From Calycina herbarum (lineage: Eukaryota; Ascomycota; Leotiomycetes; Helotiales; Pezizellaceae), in the NCBI GenBank assembly GCA_001414485.1, contig LLEY01000013.1:1-64000 (forward strand): a stretch of 64,000 nt of DNA, read 5' to 3'. This document shows positions 1,236 through 61,790 of the stretch, one piece after another. The position numbers were made by a program, and so were the translations under genes. How positions within the stretch are numbered: position 1 is the first letter of the stretch; each line of letters starts with the position of its first letter. The notes below the pieces were generated by a model, which had not been told where the DNA came from, made no database searches, and saw nothing but the letters and a program-made list of their open reading frames with translations.

Positions 1236-1402
1236 CTATCCCCTTCTTAGACTAGCGTATCCCTACGTTTAAGTATAGCCTAAGAAATATTATTAAAGAG
1301 CTGTCGGCCCTTCTAGTTTTTAATATAAACACTACTTATACTTTTAAATATAAATACTAGATTAAACTTATAAAGTATATTAATAAATCTAGCGAAGAGA
1401 TA

Positions 1403-1463
1403 GCTCCTTATACTTAATACGAACGTTCTAGGCGAAGATATATAGCTATAGCTTCAGCCTTAG
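1403..1463 (+). pseudogene. Antisense frame of Gypsy A, part 1 (zinc-cluster half)
   Basis: First half of the cluster encoded antisense to gag-pol of A. In this frame the codons at 1,409, 1,418 and 1,439 are TAT, TAC and TAT, spaced x2 and x6 with basic residues between. These are the positions of the first three cysteines of a Zn(II)2Cys6-type pattern if RIP changed TGT/TGC to TAT/TAC. The frame carries RIP stops. It continues after the B insertion: base 1,463 and bases 8,083-8,084 make one GAG codon. The start is not resolved; the open region probably begins near 1,240, and comparison with E suggests a one-base length difference upstream. Confidence 0.5.
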
Positions 1464-1924
1464 TGTCACGAATCACGTGCCAGCACGTGATAAAGTGAAG
1501 TCCAGGCGACGCTCTAATAGAACGAGCACTATTATAACCCGGGAAGGAGGAAAGGATTAAGTATAATAGGACATGCAATCCTGAGGATCTCATTACAGTT
1601 ATATCACGTGACTCGGTTAGAGCGGTCAGGTGATAGAGTCCAGTTTTGAGGAGCCCTGAAAATAGAGTCGGACTCTATCTTCGGGACTTCTGCTAAGAAG
1701 GACTCTAAACATAAACGAAGGTTCTATATAAGACTAGCACGTCTACTATTAGATAAGAGCTTCGTGCTTAACTTTAGTTATTAATCTTATTATCTTATTT
1801 AACATCTTTAATATAAGTAACGAGTTTACTTCTAAGTAAACAACCTAGCGTATCTATACTTCTTACTATAAACTAACCTTCGAGACTTAGTTATCTTTGT
1901 TTAGTTTATTTGAGTTTTGTTATA
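1464..1924 (+). repeat. 5' LTR of Gypsy B
   Basis: 461 bp, from TGTCACG to GTTATA (GTTACA before RIP). It has two CACGTG boxes near the 5' end, a TATA-like TATATAAG near 1,725 and the perfect palindrome gtttacttctaagtaaac at 1,824-1,841. Compared with the 3' LTR it is the less mutated copy: CACGTG boxes intact here read TACGTA or CACGTA there, each change being CA->TA or TG->TA. Confidence 0.95.
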
Positions 1925-1937
1925 CTTTAAGTACTAG

Positions 1938-1948
1938 CTTAGAAGTAA
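1938..1948 (+). promoter_or_regulatory. Possible self-primer binding site of Gypsy B
   Basis: The leader after the 5' LTR lacks the usual TGG start of a tRNA primer site. Instead cttagaagtaa here is an exact reverse complement of 11 bases inside the LTR palindrome (1,826-1,836). The core CTTAGAAGT is kept in the leaders of A, C, D and E. Self-priming by mRNA fold-back is known for Tf1-type chromoviruses. Here the site lies 13 bp inside the LTR edge rather than abutting it, so the role is inferred. Confidence 0.3.
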
Positions 1949-1958
1949 GATCGCTACT

Positions 1959-4900
1959 ATGTCGGTAACTTCTTCTACTCTGAAAACCACCTCGCTAAAG
2001 CCAGCTGCGGCCCCCCTAGTTGTACTAGTTACTACTCTCTATAAGGAAGTGAAGCTTCCGATTCCGAAGCTGTTTAATAGCTTGCCTAAGAAACTAGCTA
2101 AGTTCTTAATAAAAGCCTCCCTCTACTTAAACTTCTATTAAGCTTAGTTTAGAAATAAAATAGACTAGGTTATATAGTTGTCTACCTGTCTTAAAGAGGC
2201 AGCTTATAACTGGTTAGAACTATACTTAGAGGACTACTAGGCGAACAAGACAACTGAGGGAAAAGTCTCTCTTTAAATGTCTAAGAAGATAAGAGATTTG
2301 TTTAGAAATGTTTAAGGGTTTAGGAATAGAATTAACTAAGCTTTTAAGAATATTAATATGAAAAAGAAGGCAGTTAGAGCTTTGTATATACTTAAGTAAA
2401 AAGATTTAGCTGCTAAATATACCTCCTAGTTTTAATAGTACTTTGTACGAATAGGATAGAACGACGAAGTATTACGTGAATAATTCTATTATAGGCTTAA
2501 GAACAACGTTAAGGATAAACTCGCCTAGGAGGATTTTCTAGATATACTAAATAAATTAATAGATAATGTAATTAAGATCGATAACTATATCTATAAAAGG
2601 AATCTAGAGAAGAAAGGAAGTTATAGTTATTAATATAGAAAGAGTAGACGAAAAGACTATAGAGATTCTATGGAAATTAATACTACTTAAAAATCATAGG
2701 TTCTAGAGAAGGAATCTAAGAAGGAAAACTTCTAGAGAGGAGGACTGTCCTAGAAAGAGCGAAATCGTCGACGTAAGCAGAACTTATGTTATAACTGTAG
2801 TCTTCCTAGCTATAGAGTAAATAAGTATAGTAAGAAGAAAGACTCTAAAGGGAAACAAGCTAATACTACTATCTAAAAAGAAGTAGCTTTGCTAGAAAAA
2901 ATTAAACTTACGGACGAAGAACTCGAGGCTAGAGGTTATAGCACGTAAATTAAAACAGACGCTATAGATATAATAGCAGACGTTATATACTTATAGCTAA
3001 ACGAAGGAATTAAGTTATAAGTTAGTAAGGTATAAGATACTAATAATAATAGGGATCTATTACTTAAAGAATATTATAATATACGATTAGAAATAGATTA
3101 CGAATTACCTTTTTAAGTAGAATATAAATTACTACTATTAACGAGTTCGTTAGAGTTGTTAGAATCGATATCCGACTTATTAGAAGTAGATCTAGGAATA
3201 TATAAGCCTAAATAAGGCGAAATATAGACATTTATTAGAACCTTTAAAAGAGGGAATAGATAGGTATATATAGAAAACCAGAAACCTGATTTCTAAAGCT
3301 TATATTCTACTTAAGGAATTAACCCTACTATTTTAACTACCTATAAAATAGTTTAGAATAAATAGGATAGAATAACTTTAGTAAGCCTTATTACTAGAAG
3401 GAAAACTATCGAATTTAAAGAACCTAGACTAGAATAAGTAGTATCTAGCGAACTATCTAGTACGCCTAAGATAGGAGATATTTAGATAGTCGTAGATCTA
3501 TAAGAAGAAACTAGCTTATAGTAATAGCAGGGTCCTGACGACTTTATAGGACGCTCTAAACCTAGTTTTTTAGATATACTACCTGATGAAAAGGGAGCTA
3601 TACTAGAAATAGAGGGCTAGTATACTATAGTCGCTTTAGTTGGAAAAGTCGGGGTAATATTTTAAGAATTATAAAGTAGAAAATTATTTAGTATAATCCT
3701 CTAAGAGATAAACGAATACGATATAGACTAAGAAACGGAGTTAGTATAGAGAGAGCTCTATTAACTAATAATTAGAGAAATAAACGCTACCTTAAGAGAA
3801 AATCAACTTATAGTAATAGTAAAGATAAGAGGAAAGGAACTCTAAGTCTTAATTAATTTAGGAGCAACGGGTAATTTCCTTTCCTTAGTAGCTTAGTAAA
3901 AGCTAAACGTTCTAATTAAAGGTATAAAGGTATACTGTTTAGGAGTAGTTAATAGAATAGACGTTGCTTATTAGGATAGAATTATCGATTAATAGACTAT
4001 TCTAATAAGGATTACTATCGAAGGATACTACTTAGATATATAATTCGATATTATTGAAATAGGAAGTAAAGAAGCGATACTTAGTATACTATAGATTAGG
4101 GAACATAATCTAGATATTAATTAGAAGGCTTAAATAATAACCTTTAGTCGATATAATTACGTAGGTTCGTAATTATAACTATAAGGCTAGAACGAGGTTA
4201 GCGCTACCTCTTCTAAGATGCTAGGACACCTAGCCTAGGGTCTTCTACAGGTTAGTAGGACAGCTGATAACGAAATACCTATGTAGTATAGAGAATTTAA
4301 GGCCTTGTTTAAAAACCTAGAAGACTTACGAGCCTTGCTAAAACATTGCTTATAGGATTATAAGATTAAATTAAAAGAGGGTTATTATCTCTTAAAGTAG
4401 AAACTTCGGTTATATAACTAGAAAAGCCTATAAAGAATAGAAAGTTATATAAAGAAAGGTATTAAAAAGGGATATATTAGAAAGTCTAAGTTGCTAATTA
4501 CTTTAAATATACTTATTATTAAGAAAAAAGACGATCTAGATAAGAGAGTATATATTAATTATAGAGAAGTAAATTATACTACGGTTAAGGACGCTTATCT
4601 GCTGCTACCTAGCTAGTACTTATAGGACAAGTTAGATAAGGTAGTACGATTTACGAAATTAGATTAATAAAACGCTTATAGACTTATATAAATAAAAGTT
4701 GGAGACGAATAGAAGATAGCATTTGCCTTACTATCGAGCTTTTACGAATATATAGTTATACTATTTAGACTTTGTAATATACTAGCTATATATTAGAGAT
4801 AAAATAATAACATTTTAGGAGATCTTCTAGAAGTAATAGTAATCTATTACCTAGATAATATATTAATTTTCTTAGAAAAAGAAGAAGAATATAAGAGATA

Positions 4901-7103
4901 TATTAAAGAAGTTTTATAATAACTAGTAAAAGTGAACTCTCGGTTGAAACTCTTGAAATATAAGTTTAGAGTAAGTTAAACACTTTTCCTAGGATAGGTG
5001 TTTAGCCTAGGAAAAATAGAGATAGATCTAGTAAAGATCTAGGACGTCTTAAACTAGAAGTTACTAGAAAATGTAAAAGATATATAGTCCTTTCTTAGAT
5101 TTATAAACTTTTGTTATCTGTTTATTCGAGACTATATAAAGATTACTAAACTAATATTAAGACTAGTTAAGAAAGCTGTTAAGTTTATATAGAATAAATA
5201 GGCGGAGGATACTTTTTAGAAAATTAAAGCGAAGTTTATAGAAGAACCTATTTTATACGATTTCGATATAGATAAGCCTAGTACGATTGAAATAGACGCC
5301 TTAGATATAGTAGTAGGTGTAGTTCATCTATAGCTAAATAATAAGGGAAAGCTTATATCTATTATATATTATTCTAAGATATTTAACCTAGTATAATAAA
5401 ACTATAGCATTTTCGATAAAGAATTGCTTATTATAGTACTAGCTTTAGAATACTAGAGAATCTATTTATAGTTAGTAAAACATCTAGTTATAATTCTATC
5501 TAACTACAAGAACCTTAGAACGTTTATAATAACTAAGGAACTTACGACTAGACGATTAGCTAGATAGTCAGAGATATTAGAAGGATTTAATATTATTATT
5601 CGACATGTAAAAGGAATGTTAAATACTTGAGCTAATGCTCTTAGCTGGAAACTTAGATATAAGGGAGATAAAGAGTATAAAAAGATTATAATCTTGAAAA
5701 CTCTCGAGAATAGAGACTTAGTACCTACTATATACGAGATAGCGACAATAAACGATATATAGATAGACAAAACTTAGACTATATATAAAGGTTATAACTA
5801 GTATATGAAGAGGAAGCTATAGGTTCCTAGCTCGTATATAAAAGAATTTATATAAGAATACTATACTATGCCTGCTTATAGTTACTAAGGAATTCGTAGA
5901 ACCCTTTAAAGAATAAGATAATACTACTATATTAATCGATTATCTATAATAGTTAAGGAAGTGATAGCGGAATATAATACCTATACTAGGAATAAGGCTT
6001 TCTACTATACTCCTTATAGATAGATAAACACTACTCTAATACTATAGGTACCTTAGAAATTAATATCTATAGATTTTATTATTAAATTACTAAAATCTAA
6101 AGATCTATTAATAAGAGTTAAATATAACGTAATCCTAGTTATTATAGAACGACTTACGAAGTATATAATTCTAATAGTATATATAGAATCAAGTATAGCT
6201 AAGGAATTAGCATTTACGTTCCTTAGAGAAGTAGTCTTAAGATATAGACTATCTAAAGAAATACTCTTAGATAGAGATAAACTCTTTACCTTAAAATTCT
6301 AGATTACTCTTATAAAGCGATTAGGTGTAAAGAGAAAGCTATCTATAGCTTTCTACTCTTAAATAAATAGAGGAAACGAACAAATGAATTAAGTAGTTAA
6401 AACATACCTTTGTTATTATATAAACTACTAGTAAGATAACTAGGTAGAACTACTGCTCTTAGTACAGTTTACCTATAACAGTTTAGTAATAGAAACAACA
6501 CTTATTACGCTATTCTATACTAATTTTAGATATAAATTATTAGTATATCGAGAACTACTATCTATAACTATCGATAACTAACTTACTCGTATTTATATCT
6601 TAAAAATCAAGAGTCTATATAAGGAACTTATAAAAGACCTATAATTTATAGTAGAAAGAAATACACACTACTATAATAAACGACGTAGTTAGGAGCTAAC
6701 GCTAAAAGAGAGGGATAAAGTCTATCTAGTATAGAAGAATATTAACATAAAAAGACTAAGTAATAAATTAGATTATAAAAAACTTAGACTATTTAAAATC
6801 AAACGTGTTAAAGGACCTTTGAATTATAAATTAGTACTACTAAAGATAATAAATATCTATCTAGTATTCTATATATCCTTGCTCGAACCAACACTATTAG
6901 GAGCACTACTAGCCCTATTTATAGAAATTCAACTAGTTAATCTAAATACTAAATATAAAGTTAAACAGATTCTTAACTATAGGATTATTAGAGGCAAGAT
7001 TAAGTATTTAATTAAATAGTTAGACTACCTATATTCAGAGAATATATAGGAACTAAGAAGTAACCTTAACTATTGCTTAAAGGAACTTCAGGAGTTCTAC
7101 TAA
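1959..7103 (+). pseudogene. Gag-pol polyprotein of Gypsy B, RIP-degraded
   Basis: One frame of about 1,715 codons holds all retroviral-type domains without a frameshift, as in Tf1-like chromoviruses. The start ATG at 1,959 lies 35 nt after the LTR. The Gag zinc knuckle near 2,787 keeps its first two cysteines, but its His and last Cys read Tyr. The protease motif near 3,850 reads L-I-N-L-G-A-T-G, with Asp replaced by Asn. The reverse transcriptase motif at 4,845 reads YLDN instead of YLDD. RNase H lies near 5,250-5,650. Integrase lies near 5,850-6,500, with H/C positions of its zinc finger changed to Tyr. A chromodomain lies at about 6,935-7,090. Dozens of TAG/TAA codons stand where Gln or Trp is expected. 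The changed active-site residues and stops mean no function remains. Confidence 0.9.
6935..7090 (+). other. Chromodomain at the end of Gypsy B pol
   Basis: In the gag-pol frame the C-terminus reads like a chromodomain: basic V-K-Q-I-L-N, then R-G-K-I-K-Y-L-I-K, then a stop in place of Trp, L-D-Y, and S-E-N with a stop where W is usual, followed by E and S-N-L. Chromodomains on Gypsy integrases (chromoviruses) direct insertion toward methylated-histone heterochromatin. That fits the repeated insertion of these elements into one another. The same domain is seen in A (near 8,590-8,700, minus), C, D, E and G. Confidence 0.8.
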
Positions 7104-7119
7104 CAAAACCTAGGGCTGC

Positions 7120-7524
7120 CTAGAACTCGGGACTAGGGTTAGACAGAGACATATCATCGGAAAGCACCTGTTTAACAAAAGGAGCTATCTCAAAGGTAGG
7201 AAACCAGGCAGAAGAGGACTCGGGAGAAGGACTTGAGGAAGGAGGACTCAGAGGAGTGATAGGGAATCGTTTACATATAAGGCTAAAGAAAAACCGGCAC
7301 ACGGGTTTTCGAGGCCTAGGGACAGGAACGATAAGATAGCTAGGGCTATCGTAGGACCTTTTCGACCGAATATACTTAGAATAGTAAGAGGATTTAGAAA
7401 GCTCTAGGAGGCATCGACGGGACTGTTTACAACAGAAAGAACAAGTCTTAGCTAGACGTTGTACAGATTCGATCTACATAGCAAGAGCTAAACGCTCTTT
7501 TCGTTTAGTATATAAGGAGGACAT
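7120..7524 (-). pseudogene. Antisense zinc-cluster-like ORF of Gypsy B
   Basis: A 135-codon frame on the strand opposite gag-pol, from ATG at 7,524 to a stop at 7,120, 16 bp from the gag-pol stop. It has only one internal stop (TAG at 7,474-7,476, probably a former CAG). Residues 28, 31 and 38 are Cys. Residues 48, 51 and 58 are Tyr from TAT/TAC, which RIP makes from TGT/TGC. The spacing C-x2-C-x6-C-x9-C-x2-C-x6-C is that of the fungal Zn(II)2Cys6 cluster, with Lys/Arg in the loops as expected. The C-terminal half is rich in Ser and Pro and differs from the charged helix in A, D and E. The role is unknown; a DNA-binding regulator or silencing antagonist is speculation. Confidence 0.6.
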
Positions 7525-7616
7525 ATTTATATATAAAGGAAGGTTAACATCTTACTAACAAACATATCTAAGTTGGAATTCTAGCGTAGGGACACGCTAG
7601 GCTAAGAAGGGGATAG

Positions 7617-8077
7617 TGTCACGAATTACGTACTAGCACGTAATAAAGTGAAGTCTAGGCGACGCTCTAATAGGACGAGCACTATTATAACCTAGGAAGG
7701 AGGAAAGGATTAAGTATAATAGAACATGTAATCCTAAAGATCTTATTATAGTTATATTACGTAACTCGGTTAGAGCGGTCAGGTAATAGAGTCTAGTTTT
7801 AAGGAGCCCTGAAAATAGAGTCGGACTCTATCTTTAGGACTCTTACTAAGAAGGACTCCAAATATAAACGAAGGTTCTATATAAGACTAGCACGTCTGCT
7901 ATTAGATAGGAGCTTTATACTTAACTTTAGTTATTAATCTTATTATCTTGTTTAACATCTTTAATATAAGTAACGAGTTCACTTCTAAGTGAACAACCTA
8001 GCGCATCTATACTTCTTACTATAAACCAACCTTCGAGACTTAGTTATCTTTGTTTAGTTCGTTTGAGTTTCGTTATA
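7617..8077 (+). repeat. 3' LTR of Gypsy B
   Basis: 461 bp, same ends as the 5' LTR, preceded by the purine tract at 7,603-7,616. It carries more RIP changes near its 5' end than its partner: both CACGTG boxes are lost. Confidence 0.95.
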
Positions 8078-8082
8078 CTTAG

Positions 8083-8504
8083 AGGTTAATAAATATTCTA
8101 AATATATAAGGCAGAAGAAATCCTATAATATTAAGTTACGAAACCGAATACCTTTACTTTCTAACTAGTCCTCGATTAACTAGCAACGACGAAAGCTAAG
8201 AGACGAAGAAGAACGGGCCTAGCAGTTCTAATAGGAAGCGGCTGCTAAGGTTCTTCGTTTATAAAAACTTCAACGCTAACTCGATAAGCGAGAATAGCAG
8301 CTAATCTAGTCTAGTTTGAATTCTATAGCTAAGCTAGAGGAGAAAGAGGAGGAAGAGAGAAGAAACAGGGAAAGACAGAAAGAGAAGGAGTATAAAGAGG
8401 AAGAGGCTACTAGGCTAGCCGCCCTTCTTACCTCCGACCCCGCTCTTAAACCGTCTCTCGACCCCGCCTTTCTAGACTCCTTTTCTCTTAATTATAAGAT
8501 ATAA
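8083..8504 (+). pseudogene. Antisense frame of Gypsy A, part 2 (cluster half and helix)
   Basis: It continues the frame from 1,463 across the B insertion. The codons at 8,094, 8,103 and 8,124 are TAT, at the spacing of cysteines 4-6 (x2, x6). The frame then runs through several RIP stops to an open part (8,316-8,504). That part encodes a Leu/Lys/Arg heptad-like stretch, a long Glu/Lys/Arg helix and a tail ending A-F-L-D-S-F-S-L-N-Y-K-I. The stop is 13 bp from the gag-pol stop at 8,518 on the other strand. The tail is conserved in D, E, G and C. Complete, the product would be about 200 residues: N-terminal segment, zinc-cluster-like motif, coiled coil and short conserved tail. No known protein is named. 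Confidence 0.6.
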
Positions 8505-26910: not shown

Positions 26911-27487
26911 ATGGTTGTCGGAACTCAGCTCTCATACCGCCTTCTCCGATGTGTCTATAGAAGAAGGGCGAACGGGGGGCTGGATTTTTTACCGCAAAAC
27001 GCACCAGGCCTCCCTATCACAGCCCGAATAGCCGACCGCGAAGCCGAAGCCTCGAGTATCGATGAAGTACTCGCAGGTCTCTTATATGATGTAACCAGGG
27101 AGTTAACCCGAGGTGATTATAGGGGATGGTAAGTAATTAGATACACCGATTCTTACACCAAACTCTGATATGTCATAGGGCTGTTTTCGGAGCAGTAGAT
27201 GCAGACAAGAACAATCCACTTCTCGATCGCTACAACAACTCTGGCGATGAGTGGACCAAGGGCGGGAATTGGCATGGTGTCGATATTTATCTTGAGAAGG
27301 AAATTGAGTTCGAGGAGGAGGAGGAGGAGTAGATCTGGAAGGGGGCAAGTTTGCATCTCCTACTGAAGGACTGGTTATAACAAAGGAAGAGTTGACGCGA
27401 GTAAGGGTTGATTGCACTGGGAATAGGACTGGGATTTCACTACGAAAAAGCCTTGATTCAATAATCAATTGGATTATCGGCACTTGA
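26911..27487 (+). CDS. Unrecognised small protein gene, intron-containing
   Basis: The ATG has a good context (A at -3, G at +4). Exon 1 (26,911-27,128) is followed by a 50-bp intron (27,129-27,178) with GTAAGT donor and AG acceptor. Exon 2 runs to a TAG at 27,330-27,332 after six GAG codons, giving 124 residues. An open frame in another phase continues without a stop to TGA at 27,485-27,487. It can be joined by a second intron 27,277-27,332 (GT..TAG, weak donor, no clear branch site), or its loss may be a one-base slip in the GAG run. The product has an N-terminal basic segment, a central acidic region and an Asn/Trp/Gly-rich part, with no signal peptide or membrane helix. I do not recognise the family. 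It converges on the next gene, whose stop is 18 bp away. Confidence 0.5.
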
Positions 27488-27504
27488 TCTTACTTGAGAG
27501 CTTC

Positions 27505-28983
27505 TCATAAACGCGCTCGACTCTTTGTCCTCTGGGACGCTAGAGCTTTCCTAGCCTCTTTGGCTGCGAGTTCTTGCAACTCTCTAGCATCTTGGTCATC
27601 TCGTTCAATTAACTCCTGATCAATCTCTCCTTCTGAAACAGCTCTATGCGCCTCGTCAAGGGCAGTTTGTTCAGCCTCGGCTCTTAGCTGGACCTGAAAT
27701 AATGCAGCATTGTTGAGCAAAAATTCCTCCCCTTCCGAGAGTTCCTGTCCCTCGGACATCTTTCGTTTCGCCCGTTTGTAATCCCGCTCTCCGGGAGGTC
27801 TTCCATTAAAATATTTGCCGATAGCTTTCTCTTGCTTATCAATAAGGTCACCTTCTACTTCTTCCATGTCTTTCATTACCCTCTTCTCTTCCATAGTCCA
27901 TACATCGTTTGGTATTTCATGAGTCTCGCATAATAGGGTCATTCCTAATTTTCTGAAATATAGTGTTTCACGCCACTCATCCTCATCCTCATAAATTGGT
28001 AACCCCAGAGTTTCTCGGTACACCTCGTCTGAGATGTCAGCTTCGGGATCTTTCAGGATTATCGACTGGCGCCAAACATTTCTCCTATACCGATAAAGAA
28101 AATATCGACCTTCAACCGTTGTAGCGTCCCTCTCTCTCTTCCGAAGTCGCTCCTCGATCTCGGATTTTTCTCTTGCCGACTTTATCTCTTCCTCCTCTGC
28201 CTTTCTTTCTGCTTCTTGACTTCGAATTTCATCAAAATGAGTCTCTTTACCTTCAGCTACCCGAATTGCCCGCTCGCGTGCTTGTTGTAGTTTCCTGACC
28301 TTGCTTTGTTTGTCTTGTGGTAGATCGGTGACTTCCCGTGACGGTCTTCGATCTCTAAAGCCACGTTTCGAAATCACTAACTTATCGTCATACTGATCAA
28401 GTTCATAATCGGGGTCCAATGCCTCTTCAGCTGTGAGAATTCCTTCCCAATATGGGACTGGCTTCTTTCTGGGTTTTGATTCTCGTGGCTTTTTAGTCAC
28501 TGGTTCTGACTCTACATCCTCCATATCTGGCTCTTGTTCTACGAACGCCTTCCGTTTCCCTTTTGGCTTTTGTGGCCTTTTGGGCTCACGCACTGGCTTT
28601 GGCTTTGATTCTGAAGTCGACATCTCATTAGACTTCAACTTCATCACCGGCTTTCGCTTTCGCAGGTTTTTGGTTGCAGGTTTTGGTGCGGGTTCCTGTT
28701 GTTCCTCCGGTTCCGACTCTGGTTCTAGGGCTGGATCTTTGGGGGATGATCGTTTGGGAGGTGTTTTCTTGTTCGGCTTCGGGGCTTGGGGAGCGGGAGC
28801 AGGAGAATTTCGTGTAGATCCGCCAAAGGAGTTTTTTTTGTTTTTTTGATGTTGATAACAACGTGTCTCTGGATCATCAGCTTCAACCAAAAACCTTCTC
28901 TTACACCGTCTCCCAGTGGTATTATTTTTCTCGACACGTTGCCTGGAGATTGGTTTGTTGCCCTTTCCCTTCCTAGGGGCCAT
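27505..28983 (-). CDS. Basic, disordered coiled-coil protein, unknown function
   Basis: Single-exon frame of 492 codons from ATG at 28,983. Residues 1-50 are basic and contain C-K-R-R-F then R-C-Y-Q-H-Q, a small C...C-x2-H arrangement. It resembles short zinc-binding tags, but I cannot name it. Residues 55-180 are Pro/Lys/Glu-rich, with many basic clusters that look like nuclear localisation signals. Residues 215-290 and 370-490 are charged helices, probably coiled coils. Between them lies a more ordered segment with aromatic residues (Y-F-L-Y-R-Y, W-R-Q, W-R-E-T-L-Y-F). A nuclear or chromatin-associated role is a guess. The frame is intact and free of RIP, unlike all flanking DNA. The plus-strand open frame at 28,433-28,849 is its shadow. 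Confidence 0.8.
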   Translation of the reverse strand: MAPRKGKGNKPISRQRVEKNNTTGRRCKRRFLVEADDPETRCYQHQKNKKNSFGGSTRNSPAPAPQAPKPNKKTPPKRSSPKDPALEPESEPEEQQEPAPKPATKNLRKRKPVMKLKSNEMSTSESKPKPVREPKRPQKPKGKRKAFVEQEPDMEDVESEPVTKKPRESKPRKKPVPYWEGILTAEEALDPDYELDQYDDKLVISKRGFRDRRPSREVTDLPQDKQSKVRKLQQARERAIRVAEGKETHFDEIRSQEAERKAEEEEIKSAREKSEIEERLRKRERDATTVEGRYFLYRYRRNVWRQSIILKDPEADISDEVYRETLGLPIYEDEDEWRETLYFRKLGMTLLCETHEIPNDVWTMEEKRVMKDMEEVEGDLIDKQEKAIGKYFNGRPPGERDYKRAKRKMSEGQELSEGEEFLLNNAALFQVQLRAEAEQTALDEAHRAVSEGEIDQELIERDDQDARELQELAAKEARKALASQRTKSRARL

Positions 28984-29619
28984 TGATTATTGAAAAGAGT
29001 AGAGTTTTATTTGAAGAAATATAGAGTCCGAGAGGGAAGAAGGAGGTGAATAAAAGGAAGGTATTGTTTCTGGAAAAATATCTCTCTTTGTTTCACAATT
29101 CGCTTATTTCCACCACACCCAAAAACGGCTATTGATGGATTGTCCCTCTTTGTCCCATTGTATTTTGGCTTTGTCTATTTCTCATACTCTAAACAAAAAG
29201 CCCGAATAAAACTTCTGCCAACAGAACTGTGTTTAACACCCAAGACCCTTCGTGAATCGTGATATGAAAAATTCATACGACCGAATCCGGCGCCTAACTG
29301 AATTATTTCGAGCACGCTATTATTTCGAGTGAGCTAACATTCTCCCAAGTAGGCCATCGACAACGAGTAGGCTACAACAACAGTCGCATCACATTTGAGA
29401 GAAACCTCACATGACTTCAACACCTCTCATTTCCCCTCCCAATAAAAGTTCCAAGCTCAACTAGCCTGTTCGTGAGCTTACCTGTCTGGTTCGAACTCTT
29501 CTCTGGCTGTCTTATGAGGAGTTCCAAACGCCCTATAAGTCTTGAGCAACGCTCTCAAGGTGCCTGTATAATAACTTCTGGTGCAGTAAAGATATGGTAT
29601 TGCTATACACATACTTCCG
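28984..29619. other. Intergenic region between two minus-strand genes
   Basis: 636 bp without a convincing gene. The part next to 28,984 must hold the promoter of the 492-residue gene, and the part next to 29,619 the 3' end of the hydrolase gene. Short open frames at 29,472-29,729 overlap the hydrolase end and look like shadows. Confidence 0.6.
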
Positions 29620-30714
29620 TCATCTATCCTGACAAACCAGAACCTCCGGATCATCCAAGAAGGCAACCAAAGCTTCCAATTCCTGTTCCGAATACCAATG
29701 ACCCAAACCTTCAACTTCTGTCCATGTAACCTTCAGTTTGCCCTCCTTTCCCACCTCCCTGGTGCCCCAAGGATTAGGGGGATGACAAGGGGGATCCTTA
29801 TGTACGTAGTCCGATCCAAGTGCCAAAAAGACGTCCCTAGCCTGTATACCCCACTCATACTTGACTTTCTTATCCGCATTTCCATGCGCAAAGAAGAATC
29901 GACCTTCAACATAGTCGTGACACCTATCATCGGTTCCCAGCATACGCAAACAACGTGGAGCCCCAAGTATACCACGAATCGTATTAGCAACTTCCTTGCC
30001 CACTTTCTTTGAATATGCTTTCCAATCCTTTCCTTTAAGTTCACACTCTTCCATAGTCTCCAAAATCTGCTTCCGAAAAGGCAACCATCCACTCAAGCAG
30101 CAATAACCATTAAGCCCAAACCCGTCAACAATCACATCCTGCGTCAAGGCCATGATAAGTGTCATCGCAGCACCCTGAGAAAAACCCCCAAGCGCAACTT
30201 TCCCGTATAGCTGTTTCTGGCCTATACCCAGTGGCTCGGACGGATAAGGGTCCATCAACCTCTCCCGTTCATATGAAATAAGTTCTTTCAAGAAGTCATA
30301 ACTCTCCCGCATCCCGATTGCACTCTCATTCTCTCCAATCGTCCGATCGCTGAAGTCGTGGATATCGAACCAGGCATTCGTCAACTTGCCACCAAAGACA
30401 GTAGTTTCTCTAGGTCTGCCAGTGGGGAATACGAATCGTGTGTAGGGGAGAATTTGAGGGAGACTTGTCATGTAGGGACCATCGAGGGTATATTGGCCGA
30501 CGGCGGGGAATCGAAAATTGAGAATACTGGAGGCGAAGGAAGGGCCATCGGTTGAAGTTCCGTGGAGGAGGATGAGTGTGGATTTATGTATTTCGTTGAT
30601 GGGACCAACGACATGCAGGTCTGGATAGTCTGGGAAACCTGGATGAGGTTCTAAGACGGCGACCTTATCCCACATGGTAGGGGTATCGATTTCGAGGCCT
30701 CCTGTGGTTGCCAT
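29620..30714 (-). CDS. Phospholipase/carboxylesterase-type alpha/beta hydrolase
   Basis: The frame is open from an ATG at 30,774, but the ATG at 30,714 has the better context (A at -3, G at +4), giving 364 residues. An oxyanion-side motif L-L-H-G-T-S-T-D-G is followed by the nucleophile elbow G-F-S-Q-G (Ser179 in this numbering), then H-G-N-A-D (Asp281) and G-L-G-H-W (His339). These form a complete Ser-Asp-His triad in the order known for acyl-protein thioesterases and the phospholipase/carboxylesterase family (Abhydrolase_2). It is longer than the typical acyl-protein thioesterase (about 230 residues), with an insert between Ser and Asp. It has no signal peptide, so it is probably cytosolic, and single exon. 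The substrate may be S-acylated proteins or lysophospholipids; the sequence does not decide. Confidence 0.85.
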   Translation of the reverse strand: MATTGGLEIDTPTMWDKVAVLEPHPGFPDYPDLHVVGPINEIHKSTLILLHGTSTDGPSFASSILNFRFPAVGQYTLDGPYMTSLPQILPYTRFVFPTGRPRETTVFGGKLTNAWFDIHDFSDRTIGENESAIGMRESYDFLKELISYERERLMDPYPSEPLGIGQKQLYGKVALGGFSQGAAMTLIMALTQDVIVDGFGLNGYCCLSGWLPFRKQILETMEECELKGKDWKAYSKKVGKEVANTIRGILGAPRCLRMLGTDDRCHDYVEGRFFFAHGNADKKVKYEWGIQARDVFLALGSDYVHKDPPCHPPNPWGTREVGKEGKLKVTWTEVEGLGHWYSEQELEALVAFLDDPEVLVCQDR

Positions 30715-32130
30715 TTTGACTGATCTTAATGGTCTTGTTTTTTTGTTGGTAAAGTAGTACAAGCAGATGCTCATGGACCTTTCGCCATTATGTGTGAATG
30801 GGTGATGCTTGCCTTGGATGTTGACTTTATTAGTGACTTCTCAGAACTTTCTTCGGTACCTGTCTCCGGTTTCGGAGCTATCCATGCACAAGGCAGGTAC
30901 GTGGGATATGAGTGGTCGCTCATCGCTCATCGTTCCAATTGGTCGTGAATATTTCCTCGCTGCTGGATCGTTCTTGCCATTTCAGTCGAGCTCGGCAAGA
31001 GTTTTTATAGAAGCGCCCAGTTCTGTCACCTGCCAGTGGGAAATGCGAATTAAGCTGGGCTGCTGAATAAGACTTTTCGCTGACTTTGCCGCCGAGGAAC
31101 GATTGTGTCAGCTCCGTTGGAAGAGTGAGATTCTTATTTTGAGGATATACTTCCAAAGTTTGCTTTGTTAAATAGTTCCGTCTGAGTTGGCTCACAGATG
31201 AATGCCTGTTTCCCGCTCATCACCCCCAAATTCTCCCTCAAAAACTCCAATTCAAAAGGACCACTCACAACTCAGCTCACACTCAAATTTCTGTTTTGAT
31301 CATATACTTCGAAGATTTAAATGCATTGTCAAATCTTGGTGGCTCTTGGATCTTGAAACTGGATGCCTTCCACCTCGATCACCCACCCTCGTTCCTGCAT
31401 TTATCTCTAGCCCCGAAAAAGGGAAAGAGGTTGATACTCCGGATGTAGACCGGGGCTCGTGCCTTCCATTCTGAGATCTCGTGGTGGTGGCGTGCGAAGT
31501 CGACGTAGGAGGGAAGGAGCGACTAGGACTCTGATCATGGCGGTCGAGACGAAACCCGGTCAAGGCTGTGGCATTCAAACCATCGCTCATCATATGCATT
31601 TCTCCAATTGCCACTCTTGCTTTGTCCAAGACCCCATTGGTGTCAGCCTCCCACTCATCATTTTCTCCTCTCACCTTTTAACTCGGTCGCCGATGTCTCT
31701 CCTCACAATCCACGACCTGCCACACACACCCTAAAAATCAACCTCATACCTCACATCACCTGCCTCCTCTCTCTTTAAAACCTCTTGCTTCCTCCCCAAC
31801 ACTCATTACCCAAAGAAGAAACCCGGGAGGAAAGGTAGTGAAATCTGGAGAATCTGAGAAGCTTTTTGTGTGGTGATGCTGGTGGACTCCCAAGAAGTTG
31901 GTAAACGTAGAATTTTGGTTGGATTTTGTGATCTGACATATCGACGTCAGAGGGAGCGTTGGTTGGATAGCCAATTATTTCGCACTTGTAGCAAAAGAAC
32001 AGGTAAAAACTTACTACTACTCTCCGACCAAATCTCCAGGTAATTTTCAAGGCGAACAAGTTGAATAGAGACCGGGTAGTCAAAAGCCCCTAAGCATCAT
32101 TGCCCTATTCCTACGCCTCCACAACCAAGT
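30715..32130. other. Region without a supported gene
   Basis: About 1.4 kb of balanced composition upstream of the hydrolase. Several frames of 60-125 codons exist on both strands, but they overlap each other. Those I checked (30,809, 31,459 and 31,674) open with TTG or GTG rather than ATG. The best of them, on minus, has an ATG-started part of 99 codons from about 31,599 to 31,300, Ser/Thr/Arg-rich and of no known type. Promoter DNA of the hydrolase and decayed or non-coding sequence are the simplest reading. Confidence 0.45.
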
Positions 32131-36395: not shown

Positions 36396-36841
36396 TATTA
36401 CGAATTACGTTATATATAATAAGTAGTCTAGACGGCGCTCTAATAGGACAAGGCACGATATCTAGGAAATAGAAGGTAACACGAGAAGGAATTAGTAATA
36501 TAAGAGCATTTAAGTATTCTAGGATCTCACTATTAGATAGCTATTAGTAGTTATATAATAGATCCCCTCGGATCTCTTAGAGGATCTAGAGAGATCTAGG
36601 GATCTAGGCTTATATAGGGATCTAGGTAGTACGAGAAGATCTATATATACTAGCACGTCTGTTATTAGATAAGAGCTTTATACTTAACTTTAGTTATTAA
36701 TCTTATTATCTTATTTAATATCTTTAATATAAGTAACGAGTTCACTTCTAAGTAAATAATCTATTATATCTATACTTCTTATCTATATACTAACCTTTAA
36801 GACTTAGTTATCTTTGTTTAGTTTATTTAAGTTTCGTTATA
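36396..36841 (+). repeat. 5' LTR of Gypsy C
   Basis: 446 bp. The ends are shared with A, D, E and G. The segment before the TATA box (36,560-36,651) is different and contains seven GATC sites, mostly as GATCTAG or GATCTC. A TATA-like tatatata lies near 36,651. Confidence 0.93.
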
Positions 36842-36875
36842 CTTTAAGCACCTACTTAGAAGTACTACTAATATA

Positions 36876-39800
36876 ATGTCGAAAACTACGCTATTCTTAA
36901 GTTTAACCCCTATACTGCCTCTAGCGCTAATAATACCAGTAGTACCAGTTACTACTATTAGAGAGGAAGTAAAATTACTAGTATCTAAAACGTTTGATAG
37001 CTCCTTAGAGAAGCTTACTAAATTTATTATAAAAGCTTTAATATACTTAAACTTTTATTTAATATAGTTTACTTATAAAACTAATCAAGTTATATAGCTT
37101 ACTACCTGTCTTAAAGGAGTAGTATATAACTAGATAGAGCTATATTTAGAAGATTTTTAGAAGAATAAAACATTAAATAGAAGAGTATTAAACCTTATAA
37201 GTAAAAGTACTTAAGGATTGTTTTTAACTGTCGTAGGATTTAAGAAAGGAATTAACTAGACATTTACAAATGTAGATTTAAAGAAGAAGACAGTATAGGC
37301 TTTATATAGTCTCTAACAAAAAGGGTTAGTAGCTAAATATACGTTAATGTTCTAATAGTACTCTATACGTCTTAGCTAGAATAATAAAGCCTTATATAAG
37401 TAGTACTATAAAGGATTAAAGAATAGTATTAAGAATAAATTAGCTAGGGATAACTTCCTAGATATACTTAATAAGCTAACTAATAATATAATTAAAATTA
37501 ATAATCGGAATTATAAGAGAAGTCTAGAGAAAAAGAGTAGTTATAGACATCGATATTAAGGAAAAGGTAGGAAAAAAGACTATAGAGATCCTATAGAAGT
37601 TAACACTACTTAGAAGCGTTAGGTCCTAGGAAAAGGAACTTAAGGTAGAGACCTACTAAAGAAAGAACTTTCTTAAAAAAAGTAAGATCGTTATTATAAG
37701 AAGAACTTATATTATAACTATAGCCTCTCTAGCTATAGAGCAAATAAGTATAGTAAGAAGAAAGACTCTAAAGAGAAATAAGCAAATACTACTATCTAAA
37801 AAGAAGTAGCTTTACTAGAAAGAATAGAACTTATAGACGAAGAACTCAAGGCTAGAGGATATAGTATATAGATTGAAATAGATACCTTAGATATATTAAC
37901 AGACGCTATATACTTATAGCTAAACAAAGGAATTAAACTCTAAGATAGTAAAGTATAGGACACTAATAATAGTAGGAATCTACTTCTTAAAGAATATTAT
38001 AATATATAATTAGAAATAGAATATAGATTCCCTTTTTAAGTAGAGTATAAATTACTACTATTAATAAGTTTATTAGAGTTATTAGAATTAGAATCTAATT
38101 TATTAGAAGTAAATCTAAGAATATATAAGCTTAAATAAGGCGAGATATAGGCATTTATTAGAACCTTTAAGAGAGGGAATAGATAGGTATATATAGAATA
38201 TTAGAAACCTAATTTCTAGAGCCTATATTCTACTTAAGGAATTAACTCTACTATTTTAACTACTTATAAAATAGTTTAGAATAAGTAGGATAGAATAACA
38301 TTAGTAAGCCTTGTTACTAAAAGGGAAACCATCGAATTTAAAGAACCTAGACTAGAGTAAGCAGTATCTAGTAAGCTATCTAGTATACTTAAGATAGGAG
38401 ACATTTAGATAGTTATAGATCTTTAGGAGGAAACCAGCTTATAGTAATAGCAGGGGCCTAATAACTTTATAGGACGCTCTAAACCTAGTTTTTTAAGTAC
38501 GTTACCTAATTATAAGGAAGCTATACTAGAAATAAGAGAATAGTATACTATAGTCGCTTTAGTTAGAAAAGTTAGAGTAATATTTTAAGAATCGAGAAGT
38601 AGAAAATTATTTAGTATAATTTTCTAAGAGATAAACGAATACGATATAGACTAAGAAACGGAGTTAGTATAGAGAGAACTCTACTAACTAATAGATAGAG
38701 AGCTAAGTACTACCTCTAAAGAAAGTTAATTAGTTATAACTATAAAAATAAAGGGAAAGGAACTTCGAGTTATAATTAACTTAGGAGTAATAAGCAATTT
38801 TCTCTCTCTAATAGCTTTAAAAAAGCTAAACGTTCTAATTAAGAATATAAAACTATACTACTTAGGAGTAGTTAATAGAATAGATATTATATATTAAAAT
38901 AAGATTATTAATTAGTAAACTATTCTAATAAAAATTAATATTAAAGGATACTATTTAGATATATAATTCAATATTATTAAAATAGAGAGTAAGGAGGTAA
39001 TACTTAGTATACTATAGATTTAGGAACATAATCTAGATATTAACTAGAAGGTACGAATAATAACCTTTAGTTAATATCATTATATAGGATTATAATTATA
39101 ACTTTAAGGCTAGAACAAGGTTAGCGCTACCTCTTCTAAAGCGCTAGGACATCTTGTCTAGGGTCCTTTATAGGTTAGTAAGAAAGCTAATAACGAAATA
39201 CCTATATAGTATAGAGAATTTAAGGCTTTGTTTAAAAACCTAGAAGACTTACGAGCTTTATTAGAACATTGCTTATAGGATTATAAGATTAAATTAAAAG
39301 AGGGTTATCACCTCTTAAAGTAGAAGCTTCAGTTATATAACTAGAAAAGTCTATAAAGAATAGAAAGTTATATAAAGGAAGGTATTAAGAAGAGATATAT
39401 TAGAAAATCTAAGTTATTAATTACCTTAAATATACTTATTATTAAGAAAAAAGACGATTTAGACGAAAGAGTATATATTAATTACTAAGAAGTAAATTAT
39501 ACTATAGTTAAGAACGCTTATCTACTGCTACTAAGCTAATACTTATAGAATAAGTTAGGTAAGGTAGTATAATTTATAAAATTAGATTAATAAAACGCTT
39601 ATAGACTTATATAAATAAAAACCAGAGACGAATAGAAGATAGTATTTACCTTACTATTAGGCCTTTATAAATATATAGTTATACTATTTAGACTATATAA
39701 TATACTAGCTATATATTAGAGATAAAATAATAACATTTTAAGAGATCTTCTAGAAGTAATAGTAATTTATTATCTAGATAATATTTTAATCTTCTTAGAA

Positions 39801-42026
39801 AAAGAAGAAGAGTATAAGGGATATATTAGAGAAGTTTTATAATAACTTATGAAAGTAAACTCTTAGTTAAAACTCTTAAAATACGAGTTTAGAGTAACTT
39901 AGACACTTTTCTTAGGATAGGTATTTAGCTTAGAGAAAATAGAAATAGATTTAGTAAAGATCTAGGATATCTTAAACTAGAAATTACTAGAGAATATAAA
40001 AGATATATAGTTCTTTCTTAGATTTATAAACTTTTATTACCTATTTATATAAGACTATATAAAGATTACTAAACTAATAATAATACTAGTTAAGAAAATT
40101 ATTAAATTTATTTAGAATAAATAAGCTAAGGATACTTTTTAAAAGATTAAAGTAAGGTTTATAGAAAAACCTATTCTATATAACTTTAATATAGGAAAAC
40201 TAAGTATAATTAAAATAGACGTCTTAGATATATTAGTAGGTATAATTTACTTATAACTAAATAAAAAGAGAAAACTTATACTTATTATATATTATTTAAA
40301 AATATTTAACCTAGTATAATAAAACTATAGTATATTTAATAAAGAGTTACTTATTATAGTATTAGCTTTAGAATACTAGAGAATTTATTTATAACTAGTA
40401 AAATACTTAGTTATAGTCTTATCTAACTATAAGAATCTTAGGATATTTATAATAACTAAGGAACTTATAACTAGATAATTAGCTAGATAGTTAGAGATAT
40501 TAGAAGGATTTAATATTATTATATAATATATAAAAGGAACGTTAAATACTCGAGCTAATACTCTTAGCTAAAAACCTAGATATAAGAGAAATAAAGAGTA
40601 TAAAAAGATTATAATCTTAAAAACCCTTAAGAATAGAGACTTAGTATCTATTATATATAAAATTATAGTAATAAATAATATTTAGATAAATAAAATTTAG
40701 AATATATATAAAGGTTATAACTAGTATATAAAAGGGAAATTATAGGTCTCTAGCTTATATATAAAGGAATTTATATAAGAATACTATACTACGCTTACTT
40801 ATAGCTACTAAGGAATTCGTAGAACTCTTTAAAGGATAAGATAATACTACTATATTAATTAGTTATCTACGATAATTAAAGAAGTAATAGTAGAATATAA
40901 TATCTATACTAGGAATAAGGCTTCTTACTATACTTCTTATAGATAGATAAACACTACTCTAATACTATAAATACCTTAGAAATTAATATTTATAGATTTT
41001 ATTATTAAACTATTAAAATCTAAAGATTTAATAATAAGAGTTAAGTATAACTTAATCCTAGTTATTATAAAACGACTTATAAAATATATAATTTTAGTAG
41101 TATATATAGAGTTAAGTATAGCTAAGGAATTAGTATTTATATTCCTTAGAGAAGTAGTCTTAAGATATAGACTACTTAAAGAAATACTCTTAGATAGAGA
41201 TAAACTCTTTACCTTAAAATTTTAGATTACTCTTATAAAACGATTAGGTATAAAGAGAAAGCTCTCTATAGCTTTTCACTCTTAAATAAATAGAGGAAAT
41301 AAACATATAAACTAAGTAGTAGAAACATACCTTCGTTATTATATAAACTACTAGTAAAACAACTAGGTAAAACTACTGCTTTTAGTATAATTTACCTATA
41401 ATAGTTTAGTAATAGAAATAACACTTATTATACTATTCTATACTAACTTTAGATATAAATTATTAGTATATTAAGAACTACTGTCTATAACTATCGATAA
41501 CTAGCTTACTCGTATTTAGGTCTTAAAAATCAAGGGGCTATATAAGGAACTTATAGAAGATTTATAGTTTATTATAGAAAGAAACACGTACTACTATAAC
41601 AAACGACGTAGTTAGAAGCTAATACTAAAAGAGAGAGATAAAGTCTACTTAGTATAGAAAAATATTAATATAAAAAGACTAAGTAATAAACTAGATTATA
41701 AAAAACTTAGACTATTTAAAATTAAGTAAGTTAAGAGACCTTTAAATTATAAATTAGTATTACTAAAGATAATAAACATTTACCTAGTATTCTATATATT
41801 CTTACTTAAACTAGTACTACTAAGAGTACTACTAGCTCTATTTATAGAAATTTAACTAGTAAACCTAAATACTAAGTATAAAGTTAAGAGGATTCTTAAC
41901 TATAAACTAGTTAGAGGATAAGTTAAGTACTTAATTAAATAGTTAGATTACCTATACTTAGAAAATACTTAAGAGCTAAGAAGTAATCTTAACTATTACT
42001 TAGTAGAACTTTAGAAGTTCTATTAG
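36876..42026 (+). pseudogene. Gag-pol polyprotein of Gypsy C, RIP-degraded
   Basis: Begins at ATG 36,876, 35 nt after the LTR. The first 63 codons are open. The zinc knuckle near 37,710 has lost its cysteines to Tyr. The RT motif at 39,768 reads Y-Y-L-D-N and stays in the same frame as the start, so gag and pol are one frame. Integrase and chromodomain follow to a stop at 42,024-42,026. It has the same architecture as B and E. Confidence 0.85.
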
Positions 42027-42042
42027 GAAAACCTAGGTTTAC

Positions 42043-42217
42043 CTATATTTCATAGTCTAAAGAAAAAGCTATAAAGAAGGCTAGGTTAAGGACTATCTTA
42101 GATTAGGAATTAGTAGGAATAGGCAGAGCTATTAGATAGGTAACCTCCGCCTTCTACTACTCTTATTCCTCTCTTTCTTTCTCCTTCTTCTCTTTCTTTT
42201 CTATCTCTTTAGTAATA
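42043..42217 (-). pseudogene. Antisense frame of Gypsy C, C-terminal part
   Basis: The minus-strand frame ends at 42,043, 16 bp beyond the gag-pol stop. It encodes a Lys/Glu-rich helix and the tail A-F-F-I-A-F-S-L-D-Y-E-I. Element D interrupts it at 42,217; the rest should lie at 49,007 onward, where I could not follow the frame. Confidence 0.45.
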
Positions 42218-42682
42218 TATAACGAAACTCAAACGAACTAAACAAAGATAACTAAGTCTCAAAGGTTAGTATATAGGTAAGAAGTATAGACGCGATCACT
42301 TGTTCACTTAGAAGTGAACTCGTTACTTATATCAAAGATGTTAAATAAGATGATAAGATTAATAACTAAAGTTAAGTACGAAGCTCCTATCTAATAGTAG
42401 ACGTGCTAGTCTTATATAGAACCTTCGTTTTCTAAGTACGTTGCTTATATCGCTTATATCGCTCGCGTCGCTTGTAATTAAGGCGATTAGAGCGATGTAG
42501 GCGATTACGTTATATGATCTTACATGACTTCTAATATTACTATAATAGTAAGATCCTAAAATCCCTAATATTCTTTTATATTACTGATTTCCTTCTATAT
42601 TACTTTCCTTTCCTAGATATTATACCTTATCTTATTAGAACGCCGTCTAGACTACTTACTACGTATACCGTGATTTATAACA
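42218..42682 (-). repeat. 3' LTR of Gypsy D
   Basis: 465 bp, ending in an unmutated TAACA followed by the complement of the purine tract. Its pre-TATA segment (42,425-42,505) has repeated TTATATCGC and GCGATTAG/GCGATGTAG motifs, unlike A, C or E. Confidence 0.93.
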
Positions 42683-42739
42683 CTATCCCCTTCTTAGACT
42701 AGCGTGTTCCTACGCTTAAGTATAGCCTAAGAAATATTA

Positions 42740-43335
42740 TTAAGAGGTAAGCAGCCTCTCTAGTTCCTATTATATTATTAACACCTCTCTTAAAAGACAA
42801 GCTTAAATAATATAGGACTCTTAACACTCTTCGAATTAAACGTTTAAGACGCGAAATAATTCCTTATACTCGTTATATAAATGTAAAAACTAGTCGTTAA
42901 TATATTAGCGTTTCTAGTAGTTCTAAGTATTCCGAGTATACTAGGAAGGGTAAATCTTATAATATTAAGTTATAAAATCGAATATTCTTAATTTTCAAGT
43001 AGGAATCTATTAATACTTAGAAGTAGAGGTTATAATAGTAGGAAGAGATAGCTTATAAGATTTAGGAAGAAGCTATATAGAAGATCCTTTGTCTATAAAA
43101 ACAATAACGCTTCTTTATAGAGTAGGAGTAAGAGATACTCCGTTGTAGTCTTGCTAACCTATAAGAACTTAATAAAGCTGATGAAAAAGAAAGAGTAGAG
43201 AAAGAGAAAGAAGAGAGGGAATTAGAGGTTGCCTAGCTGGCGGCTCTCTCTTCTTCTAGCGACCCCGCTTTTGTTACTAAGCTGACCCTTGATTCGGCTT
43301 TCCTTGAGGCTTTCTCTTCTAACTACGAGATGTAG
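42740..43335 (+). pseudogene. Antisense frame of Gypsy D
   Basis: Plus-strand frame, opposite to gag-pol. TAT codons at 42,865, 42,874, 42,901, 42,928, 42,937 and 42,958 give spacing x2-x8-x8-x2-x6, close to the six-cysteine cluster in A, B and E if each was TGT. The frame continues without a shift through a heptad-like and Glu/Lys-rich helix to a tail ending A-F-L-E-A-F-S-S-N-Y-E-M and a stop at 43,333-43,335. That stop is 13 bp from the gag-pol stop on the other strand. The last 60 codons are nearly free of stops. Confidence 0.55.
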
Positions 43336-43348
43336 GTAACTCTAGGTT

Positions 43349-48502: not shown

Positions 48503-48536
48503 TATATTAGTAGTACTTCTAAGCAGGTACTTAAAG

Positions 48537-49001
48537 TATAATAAAACTTAAATAAACTAAATAAAGATAACTAAGTCTTAAAGGTTAGTATATAAGTAAG
48601 AAGTATAAACGCGATTACTTATTTACTTAGAAGTGAACTCGTTACTTATATCAAAGATGTTAAATAAGATAATAAGATTAATAACTAAAGTTAAGTACGA
48701 AGCTCCTATCTAATAGCAGACGTGCTAGTCTTATATAGAACCTTCGTTTTCTAAGTACGTCGCTTATATCGCTTATATCGCTCGCGTCGCTCGCGATTAA
48801 GGCGATTAGAGCAATGTAGGCGATCACGTTACATGATCCCACGTGACTTCTAACATTACTATAATAGTAAGATCCTGAAATCTCTAATGTTCTTTCGTAT
48901 TACTGATTTCCTCCTGTGTTACTTTCCTTTCCCGGATATTATACCTTGTCCTATTAGAACGCCGTCTGAACTACTTACCACGTATACCGTGATTCGTAAT
49001 A
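48537..49001 (-). repeat. 5' LTR of Gypsy D
   Basis: 465 bp, the promoter-side LTR. The pre-TATA segment keeps the alternating ATATCGC / GCGATTA motifs and CACGTGAC near 48,839. Confidence 0.93.
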
Positions 49002-49006
49002 TAATG

Positions 49007-61200: not shown

Positions 61201-61790
61201 CTATATCTCGTAATTAAGAGGAAAGGATTCTAGAAAGGCAGGGTTAAGAGCTAGATCGAAGACGAGGTTGGAAGTAGGAAGGGCGGCTAGCCTAGTAGCT
61301 TCTTCCTCTTTATACTCCTTCTCCTTCTGTCTTTTCCTATCTTTTCTCTCTTCCTTCTCTTTCTCCTCTAGCTTAGCTATAGAATTTAAACCAGAGTAGA
61401 TCAGCTACTGTTCTTACTCGTCGAGTTAGTACTAAAGTTTTCGTAAACGAAGAACCTTAGTAGCCGCTTCCTATTAGGACTACTAGGCCTGTTCTTCTTC
61501 GTCCTTTAATTTTCATTATTACTAGTTAATTAAGGACTAGTCGGAAAGTAAGAGCATTCGATTTCACGACTTAACGTTATAGGATTTCTTCTACCTTATA
61601 TACTTAGAACATTTATTAACCTCTAAGGTTAAAGATATAGCTATATATCTTCGTCTAGAACGTTTATATCAAGTATAAGGAGCTATCTCTTTACTAGATT
61701 TATTAATACGCTTTATAAGTTCGATCTAGTATTTATATTTAAAGGCACGAGTAGTATTTATATTAAAACCAGGAGAGCCGACAGCTCTTT
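61201..61790 (-). pseudogene. Antisense frame of Gypsy E with zinc-cluster-like motif
   Basis: Ends at 61,201, 13 bp from the gag-pol stop. Read on minus, six codons from 61,677 down to 61,579 have the spacing x2-x6-x11-x2-x6. One of them (61,609-61,611) is still TGT for Cys; the other five are TAT, the expected RIP product of TGT. Lys/Arg fill the loops (K-R-S-R-R-R and I-R, a stop, K-K-S). Then come a Leu-heptad-like part, a Glu/Lys helix and the tail A-F-L-E-S-F-P-L-N-Y-E-I. All lie in one frame with a few RIP stops. The start is uncertain. This is the uninterrupted reference for the split copy in A. Confidence 0.6.

Follow-up and report, generated by a model that had tools for sequence, protein, structure and literature searches.

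The 64,000 nucleotides at the start of contig LLEY01000013.1 of Calycina herbarum (hereafter, the window) are rich in gypsy elements mutated by repeat-induced point mutation (RIP). One of them, the Ty3/Gypsy chromovirus that we call element B, carries an open reading frame (ORF) on its antisense strand. The sequences of its copies give good support to the view that this frame was coding. With moderate confidence, we read it as a real accessory gene of the chromovirus for a small zinc-cluster-like protein, most likely a nuclear regulator that binds the U3 part of its own long terminal repeat (LTR). Direct support was obtained for the ORF, for six positions occupied by cysteine or tyrosine, and for coding constraint in the type to which element B belongs (type B). 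Likewise, relatives with six cysteines, the occurrence in several element types, and a shared divergence of ORF and U3 were observed directly. The regulatory role is what we infer from them. In every copy read, the gene is now broken by RIP.

The frame at 7120-7524 (-) translates from an ATG to a stop in 135 codons, with a single internal stop. A first-pass annotation, made from the letters of the window alone, had reported the frame, its stop, and its Cys/Tyr spacing, and all of them read as claimed. The window copy has Cys at codons 28, 31, and 38 and Tyr at codons 48, 51, and 58, which gives C-x2-C-x6-C-x9-Y-x2-Y-x6-Y. In the form used here, the zinc-cluster rule is C-x2-C-x6-C-x5..12-C-x2-C-x6..8-C. 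The type B spacing (x2,x6,x9,x2,x6) falls within it. The tail after the cluster is rich in Ser and Pro in this type.

The annotation was right to place the frame antisense in a chromovirus, but the position it gave, opposite gag-pol, is mostly wrong. The ORF lies mostly between the pol chromodomain, whose match ends at about 7100, and the 3' LTR, which starts at 7617. More precisely, this is the Boty/brtn type of placement, in which a Ty3/Gypsy element with a chromodomain carries an antisense ORF after pol and before the 3' LTR. In the frame of pol, no stop shared by at least 95% of the copies comes before the one at 7257 (85/86), so the final part of the antisense ORF may be overlapped by the end of pol.

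The genome (68.8 Mb, 379 contigs) was searched for copies at the DNA level, where the best 40 of 194 candidates were scored, and at the protein level, where the best 150 of 214 were scored. Both copy counts are lower bounds. The 68 overlapping loci obtained correspond to 46 distinct copies. A set of 86 copies was made by adding 40 of the 150 protein-search rows, mostly more diverged. At one locus (L033, contig C9), two copies of the antisense ORF lie in opposite orientation, about 1 kb apart or less.

Across 31 copies, the six motif positions show only TGY or TAY codons (186 of 186 cells). In the 46 distinct copies, the columns restricted to Cys and Tyr, and with Cys in at least one copy, are 28, 31, 38, 48, 51, 58, and 76. 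In the 86 copies, 514 of the 516 cells at the six motif positions hold Cys or Tyr; the exceptions are one gap (position 48) and one His (position 58). Each position is Cys in some copies (48/86, 19/86, 61/86, 21/85, 9/86, and 4/86, in the order of the motif). This TGY/TAY polymorphism bears out the earlier claim that the three tyrosines of the window copy were formerly cysteines. None of the 86 copies has all six Cys together (range 0 to 5, with one copy at five), and none has a fully open antisense frame (1 to 11 internal stops each). Less mutated copies with six Cys, which the annotation had suggested looking for in the genome, were not found there (0/86), and only two relatives from other sources, P0001 and P0004, have them. 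On the other hand, unmutated copies with other residues at these positions or with a closed frame, which would speak against the gene, did not turn up, though no copy in the genome is unmutated.

We counted a column as Cys/Tyr when it holds Cys or Tyr with at least one Cys, tolerating at most two other residues. Seven of the 135 antisense codon columns qualify in the 86 copies, namely the six motif positions and codon 76. The remaining five frames have 4, 1, 0, 3, and 2 such columns, and the zinc-cluster spacing fits none of them. When seven columns were placed at random, the spacing rule was matched in 3 of 2,000,000 draws. Codon 76 (7297-7299), downstream of the cluster, is a seventh Cys/Tyr column with 9 Cys and 77 Tyr. 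Stops occur in 17 columns of the antisense frame, and 15 of these have CAA, CAG, CGA, or TGG in some copy, which agrees with the RIP prediction. No antisense stop is fixed over the 86 copies. Among the five other frames, four have one fixed stop each and antisense frame 1 has none.

RIP does not make transversions. In the 86 copies, transversion columns with a minor count of at least 2 are distributed 9/4/27 over antisense codon positions 1/2/3 (Fisher p 4e-6). At minor counts of at least 1, 3, and 5, the distributions are 26/23/43 (p 0.002), 6/3/17 (p 0.0008), and 4/2/8 (p 0.08), respectively. We consider the frame to have been coding because it has no fixed stop and shows this excess of transversions at third positions. 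The crude transversion omega, which comes from column counts with no tree over copies related to each other, was 0.63, 0.46, and 0.39 at minor counts of at least 1, 2, and 3. A dN/dS near 1, which the annotation had named as evidence against the gene, is not what the value of 0.46 indicates. The 30 close copies alone have transversion columns 1/0/3, too few to judge, and their LTR control gave 4/2/0. These copies have 3 indels in the ORF (2, 12, and 15 bases) against 73 in the 3' gap plus LTR (69 single-base), although many of the 73 may go back to a single change in the window copy, which served as the reference, and so have been counted again in every other copy.

Two sense-strand candidates were rejected as real genes. 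The sense-strand tail of pol has 20 majority-stop columns in the pol frame, plus one stop fixed in all copies. Sense frame 1 has the same third positions as the antisense frame. In type B, one of its stops is fixed and 9 of its stop columns lack a RIP source codon, compared with 0 and 2 in the antisense frame. In the comparison of D with E, the two frames are indistinguishable by identity (45% for sense frame 1 and 43% for the antisense frame).

The protein search that the annotation had proposed gave 13 candidates with the window piece, none at E <= 0.01, and was productive with other queries. Eight observed rows from three element types, with X at stops, found P0001, P0002, and P0003. A search with P0001 found P0004 (194 amino acids) and P0005 (tail only). 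P0001 is HYALB_00014084, a partial protein annotated in Hymenoscyphus albidus. The domain-bearing relatives are 129-194 amino acids long, and two of the four, P0001 and P0004, are unbroken proteins with all six Cys (C-x2-C-x6-C-x11-C-x2-C-x6-C). P0002 and P0003 are B-like. They keep the B spacing, but Tyr occupies three of the six positions in P0002 and two in P0003. Presumably, P0001 to P0005 would lie in retrotransposons too.

In Pfam, PF00172 (Zn_clus) gave 15.9 bits with P0001, 11.3 with P0004, and 19.0 with the best half, all below the cut-off of 21. Since the gathering score is not reached, the domain is named zinc-cluster-like and is not filed as PF00172. The GAL4-type binuclear spacing proposed in the annotation holds, and two relatives have the six Cys, but the family threshold is not attained. 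Capture from a host regulator gained no backing: no host parent was found, and Zn_clus remains below its gathering score. A Foldseek search of the P0004 model against the PDB (E <= 10) returned 11 matches, consisting of PUT3, Pho7, LEU3, PPR1, GAL4, HAP1, and 1cld entries (1cld is presumably LAC9). We take all 11 to be Zn2Cys6 proteins; only the PPR1 entry title states it. The suggested structure prediction led only to such entries, but none is significant (best E 1.0). A predicted helix spans residues 72-154, confident from 81 to 150. Pfam searches of the window and copy pieces gave nothing useful, and PDB sequence searches gave no significant match. Plasmid and viral collections, where a fungal gene is hardly expected, gave no useful match.

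The ORF and U3 were found to diverge as one block, with late pol and R-U5 near-identical. Between B, D, and E, there are 0.7 transversions per 100 sites in the last 2.6 kb of pol and 1.0-1.9 in R-U5, against 16.7-24.2 in the antisense region and 11.2-20.4 in U3. With the elements cut into bins of 200 bases, the difference between D and E is 6.5-22.5 per 100 within the ORF/U3 block. Their first two bins (5' LTR) reach 9.5 and 6.0, and the bins elsewhere outside the block reach at most 4.5. Elements A and E are one type; they differ by 0.9 transversions per 100 over the antisense piece and by 0.4 over U3. Element C differs from the other elements by 1.1-1.5 per 100 in pol.

A B-type U3 is present at 30/30 loci picked by similarity to the B-type ORF, the window copy among them. 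Own-type U3 was the best match for 3/3 E pieces and 3/3 D pieces, which are small pieces. Further comparisons of the ORF-U3 pairing agree, but they cover only the 40 best-scoring candidates, a limit that favours complete matches. C61 and C117:63005, two places with an E-type ORF, are missing from one of these best-40 sets. As for CGG/CCG triplets, both LTRs of B have CGG-N6-CGG and the other types do not. Since this motif is not common to the types, no binding site is claimed. A further stretch, at about 1864-2863, shows 5-19 transversions per 100 sites between B and both D and E; in the following bins, as far as pol extends, the values are 0-4.5. The stretch is probably the 5' part of gag and may be a second block that was exchanged.

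Elements A, D, and E carry diverged antisense ORFs at the same place as in B, with a longer charged tail. The ORF of element C was excluded from the ORF counts. In D and E (21 copies each, window included), three of the six positions show Cys, the remaining residues being Tyr apart from one His in E. The D type spacing (x2,x8,x8,x2,x6) departs from the zinc-cluster rule. In the A/E type, each half of the cluster resembles the opposite half of the usual cluster, with no match significant. The end stops are at codon 216 in E and codon 225 in D, both in 21/21 copies. Further stops are present in 21/21 copies at 4 codons in E and 9 in D, one of each before the inferred start. Given this heavy mutation and the further fixed stops, the open frame of the D and E types rests on the relatives.

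Element B is bordered by a 5-bp duplication, CTTAG (1459-1463 and 8078-8082). Its insertion interrupts the antisense ORF of A, a reversed element, and separates the third Cys position from the fourth. The pol of element B, a RIP-mutated copy, matches PF00385 (Chromo) with 24.4 bits, just below the gathering score of 25.1, and PF24626 (SH3_Tf2-1) with 24 bits (E 4.3e-5; cut-off 30). Judged by these matches, the chromodomain at the end of pol places element B among the chromoviruses of Ty3/Gypsy. The reversed element D seems to lie inside the antisense-ORF region of element C (36396-49919), a place similar to that of B in A. An island with 44-48% GC at 27001-32000, within the AT-rich window, perhaps holds host genes.

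Positions of the antisense ORFs and of the parts of element B in the window
Feature	Position	Strand	Remarks
Antisense ORF of element B	7120..7524	-	134 codons + stop; one internal stop, codon 17 (7474-7476)
Six-cysteine zinc-cluster-like stretch	7351..7443	-	codons 28-58; 3 Cys + 3 Tyr in the window copy
Element B, Ty3/Gypsy chromovirus, RIP-mutated	1464..8077	+	LTR repeat, flanks, Chromo and SH3_Tf2-1 matches in pol
5' LTR of element B	1464..1924	+	1461-1927 vs 7614-8080: 91.6% identity
3' LTR of element B	7617..8077	+	LTR repeat
U3 part, 3' LTR of element B	7617..7870	+	boundary approximate; diverges along with the antisense ORF
R-U5 part, 3' LTR of element B	7871..8077	+	1.0-2.0 transversions/100 sites to elements A, C, D, E
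pol chromodomain of element B	6954..7100	+	read through RIP stops; PF00385, E 2.9e-5
Element A (reversed), first ORF part through the third Cys position	1325..1463	+	start inferred from P0001
Element A, ORF remainder: second cluster half and charged tail	8083..8504	+	flanks form one frame across the insertion
Element D (reversed), antisense ORF	42772..43335	+	ATG in 10/21 copies, ATA in 11; end stop 21/21
Element E, antisense ORF	61201..61761	-	start codon ATA in 21/21, start inferred from P0001 and P0004; end stop 21/21

In the proposed mechanism, the antisense ORF would be transcribed from the 3' LTR side. The small zinc-cluster protein would enter the nucleus, where its six-Cys domain would bind zinc and DNA. 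The long charged tail of the A/E and D types would probably form a coiled coil for dimerisation. The putative target consists of sites in the U3 of the element's own LTR. Through this binding the protein could tune sense transcription, with the direction of the effect presumptive.

The most serious alternative is that the ORF/U3 block diverges fast merely through weak constraint and a site of recombination in reverse transcription. The protein would then be employed otherwise, unpaired with U3. We regard this as a distinct possibility, though not as a likely one. In the LTR subfamilies of crapaud (Podospora), variation is concentrated in U3 and R-U5 is conserved, and recombination and diversifying selection are discussed in the passages concerned (PMC10787394). 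Nevertheless, weak constraint explains the mosaic and not the coding constraint of type B, nor the presence of the gene in A/E and D. The crapaud element also differs: a figure legend gives two ORFs, the passages on it present no antisense gene, and the word "antisense" is absent from the paper (PMC10787394). Divergence limited to U3 is thus known in crapaud, whereas here a coding gene diverges along with U3.

It is unlikely that the product is a zinc-knuckle-like nucleic-acid chaperone or a partner of Gag, acting on the RNA or cDNA of the element and not on its promoter. The protein is short, basic, and rich in Cys, it falls below the gathering score of Zn_clus, and a coding signal cannot separate DNA binding from RNA binding. 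However, the spacing and the non-significant Foldseek matches favour a DNA-binding binuclear cluster, and the divergence shared with U3 suits a promoter target better. Somewhat more doubtful still is that the antisense RNA itself matters, through double-stranded RNA and silencing or through transcriptional interference, with the protein secondary. Antisense transcripts of LTR elements may feed small interfering RNA, according to passages of PMC7264820, but such a role needs no reading frame, and codon-position bias and Cys conservation are seen. An open, Cys-like frame by chance in AT-rich, RIP-mutated DNA, where TAT/TAC are common and types D and E have Cys/Tyr columns in further frames as well, is hardly credible and was rejected on the 86 copies, the other-frame control, and the 3/2,000,000 spacing draws, with the six-Cys relatives also speaking against it.

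Zhao et al. (2011) reportedly described brtn, an antisense gene of Boty-like elements in Botrytis cinerea and Sclerotinia sclerotiorum. The view that gag and pol are all that a gypsy element normally carries, stated in the first-pass annotation, overlooks antisense genes known at the same place, including brtn of Boty in Botrytis and Sclerotinia (passages of PMC7264820). Passages of PMC4227169 and PMC8365987 also treat brtn of Boty-like elements. The likeness to brtn concerns the antisense place between pol and the 3' LTR. The passages on brtn mention neither a zinc cluster nor co-divergence with U3, and no protein named BRTN was among the matches of the eight-row search or the P0001 search. 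In Monilinia, a transcript resembling both truncated Pol and BRTN is reported, with the strand not given in the passage (PMC5987419). This points to transcription of such regions in relatives.

The aORF-3R genes of plants (maize Grande gene23, rice RIRE2, Silene Retand with TRP28, and PvRetro13) share the place and the strand. The Grande product is nuclear, and a regulatory role has been proposed (passages of PMC7264820 and PMC11963269). They differ in having other domains (TRP28, SMC) and other hosts, and the word "zinc" is absent from both papers. Fungal Zn2Cys6 (GAL4-type) regulators have the matching six-Cys spacing, basic loops, and a helix that could dimerise. On the other hand, the present protein is below the Pfam gathering score and is encoded on the opposite strand of a retrotransposon. 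HBZ of human T-cell leukemia virus type 1 (HTLV-1) acts on the transcription of its own virus and is a bZIP protein, not a zinc cluster. The comparison is functional only, with no homology claimed, and HBZ figures as an antisense retroviral gene for a nuclear protein in passages of PMC11963269.

The word "antisense" does not occur in PMC3248453 (fungal LTR elements) or PMC8254937 (the H. albidus genome). Among the open-licence papers listed, covered by titles and beginnings of abstracts and with the original description of brtn outside them, none was seen to report a zinc cluster for an antisense retrotransposon gene. Likewise, a narrow open-licence search and the passages of PMC10787394 gave no report of an antisense gene and U3 diverging as one block. 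So, antisense genes at this place are already known, and the zinc-cluster-like domain and the ORF/U3 block are apparently unreported, in that we found no report of them.

The reading as an accessory gene for a U3-binding regulator can be taken one step further. The ORF and U3 may form an immunity-like cassette, in which the protein of each type would recognise its own U3, and a swapped or co-diversified pair would escape the control of the resident copies. The comparison is with lambdoid phages and their repressor-operator region. We propose this only tentatively. The cassette would fit the block pattern, but neutral recombination at U3 explains that pattern without it. If true, an element with nearly the same pol would evade control by residents of another type. 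For the accessory gene itself, a domain of known mechanism that diverges in step with the adjacent half of the promoter makes binding to its own U3 directly testable. If each protein binds only its own U3, retrotransposons would have a self-made, type-specific control of their copies.
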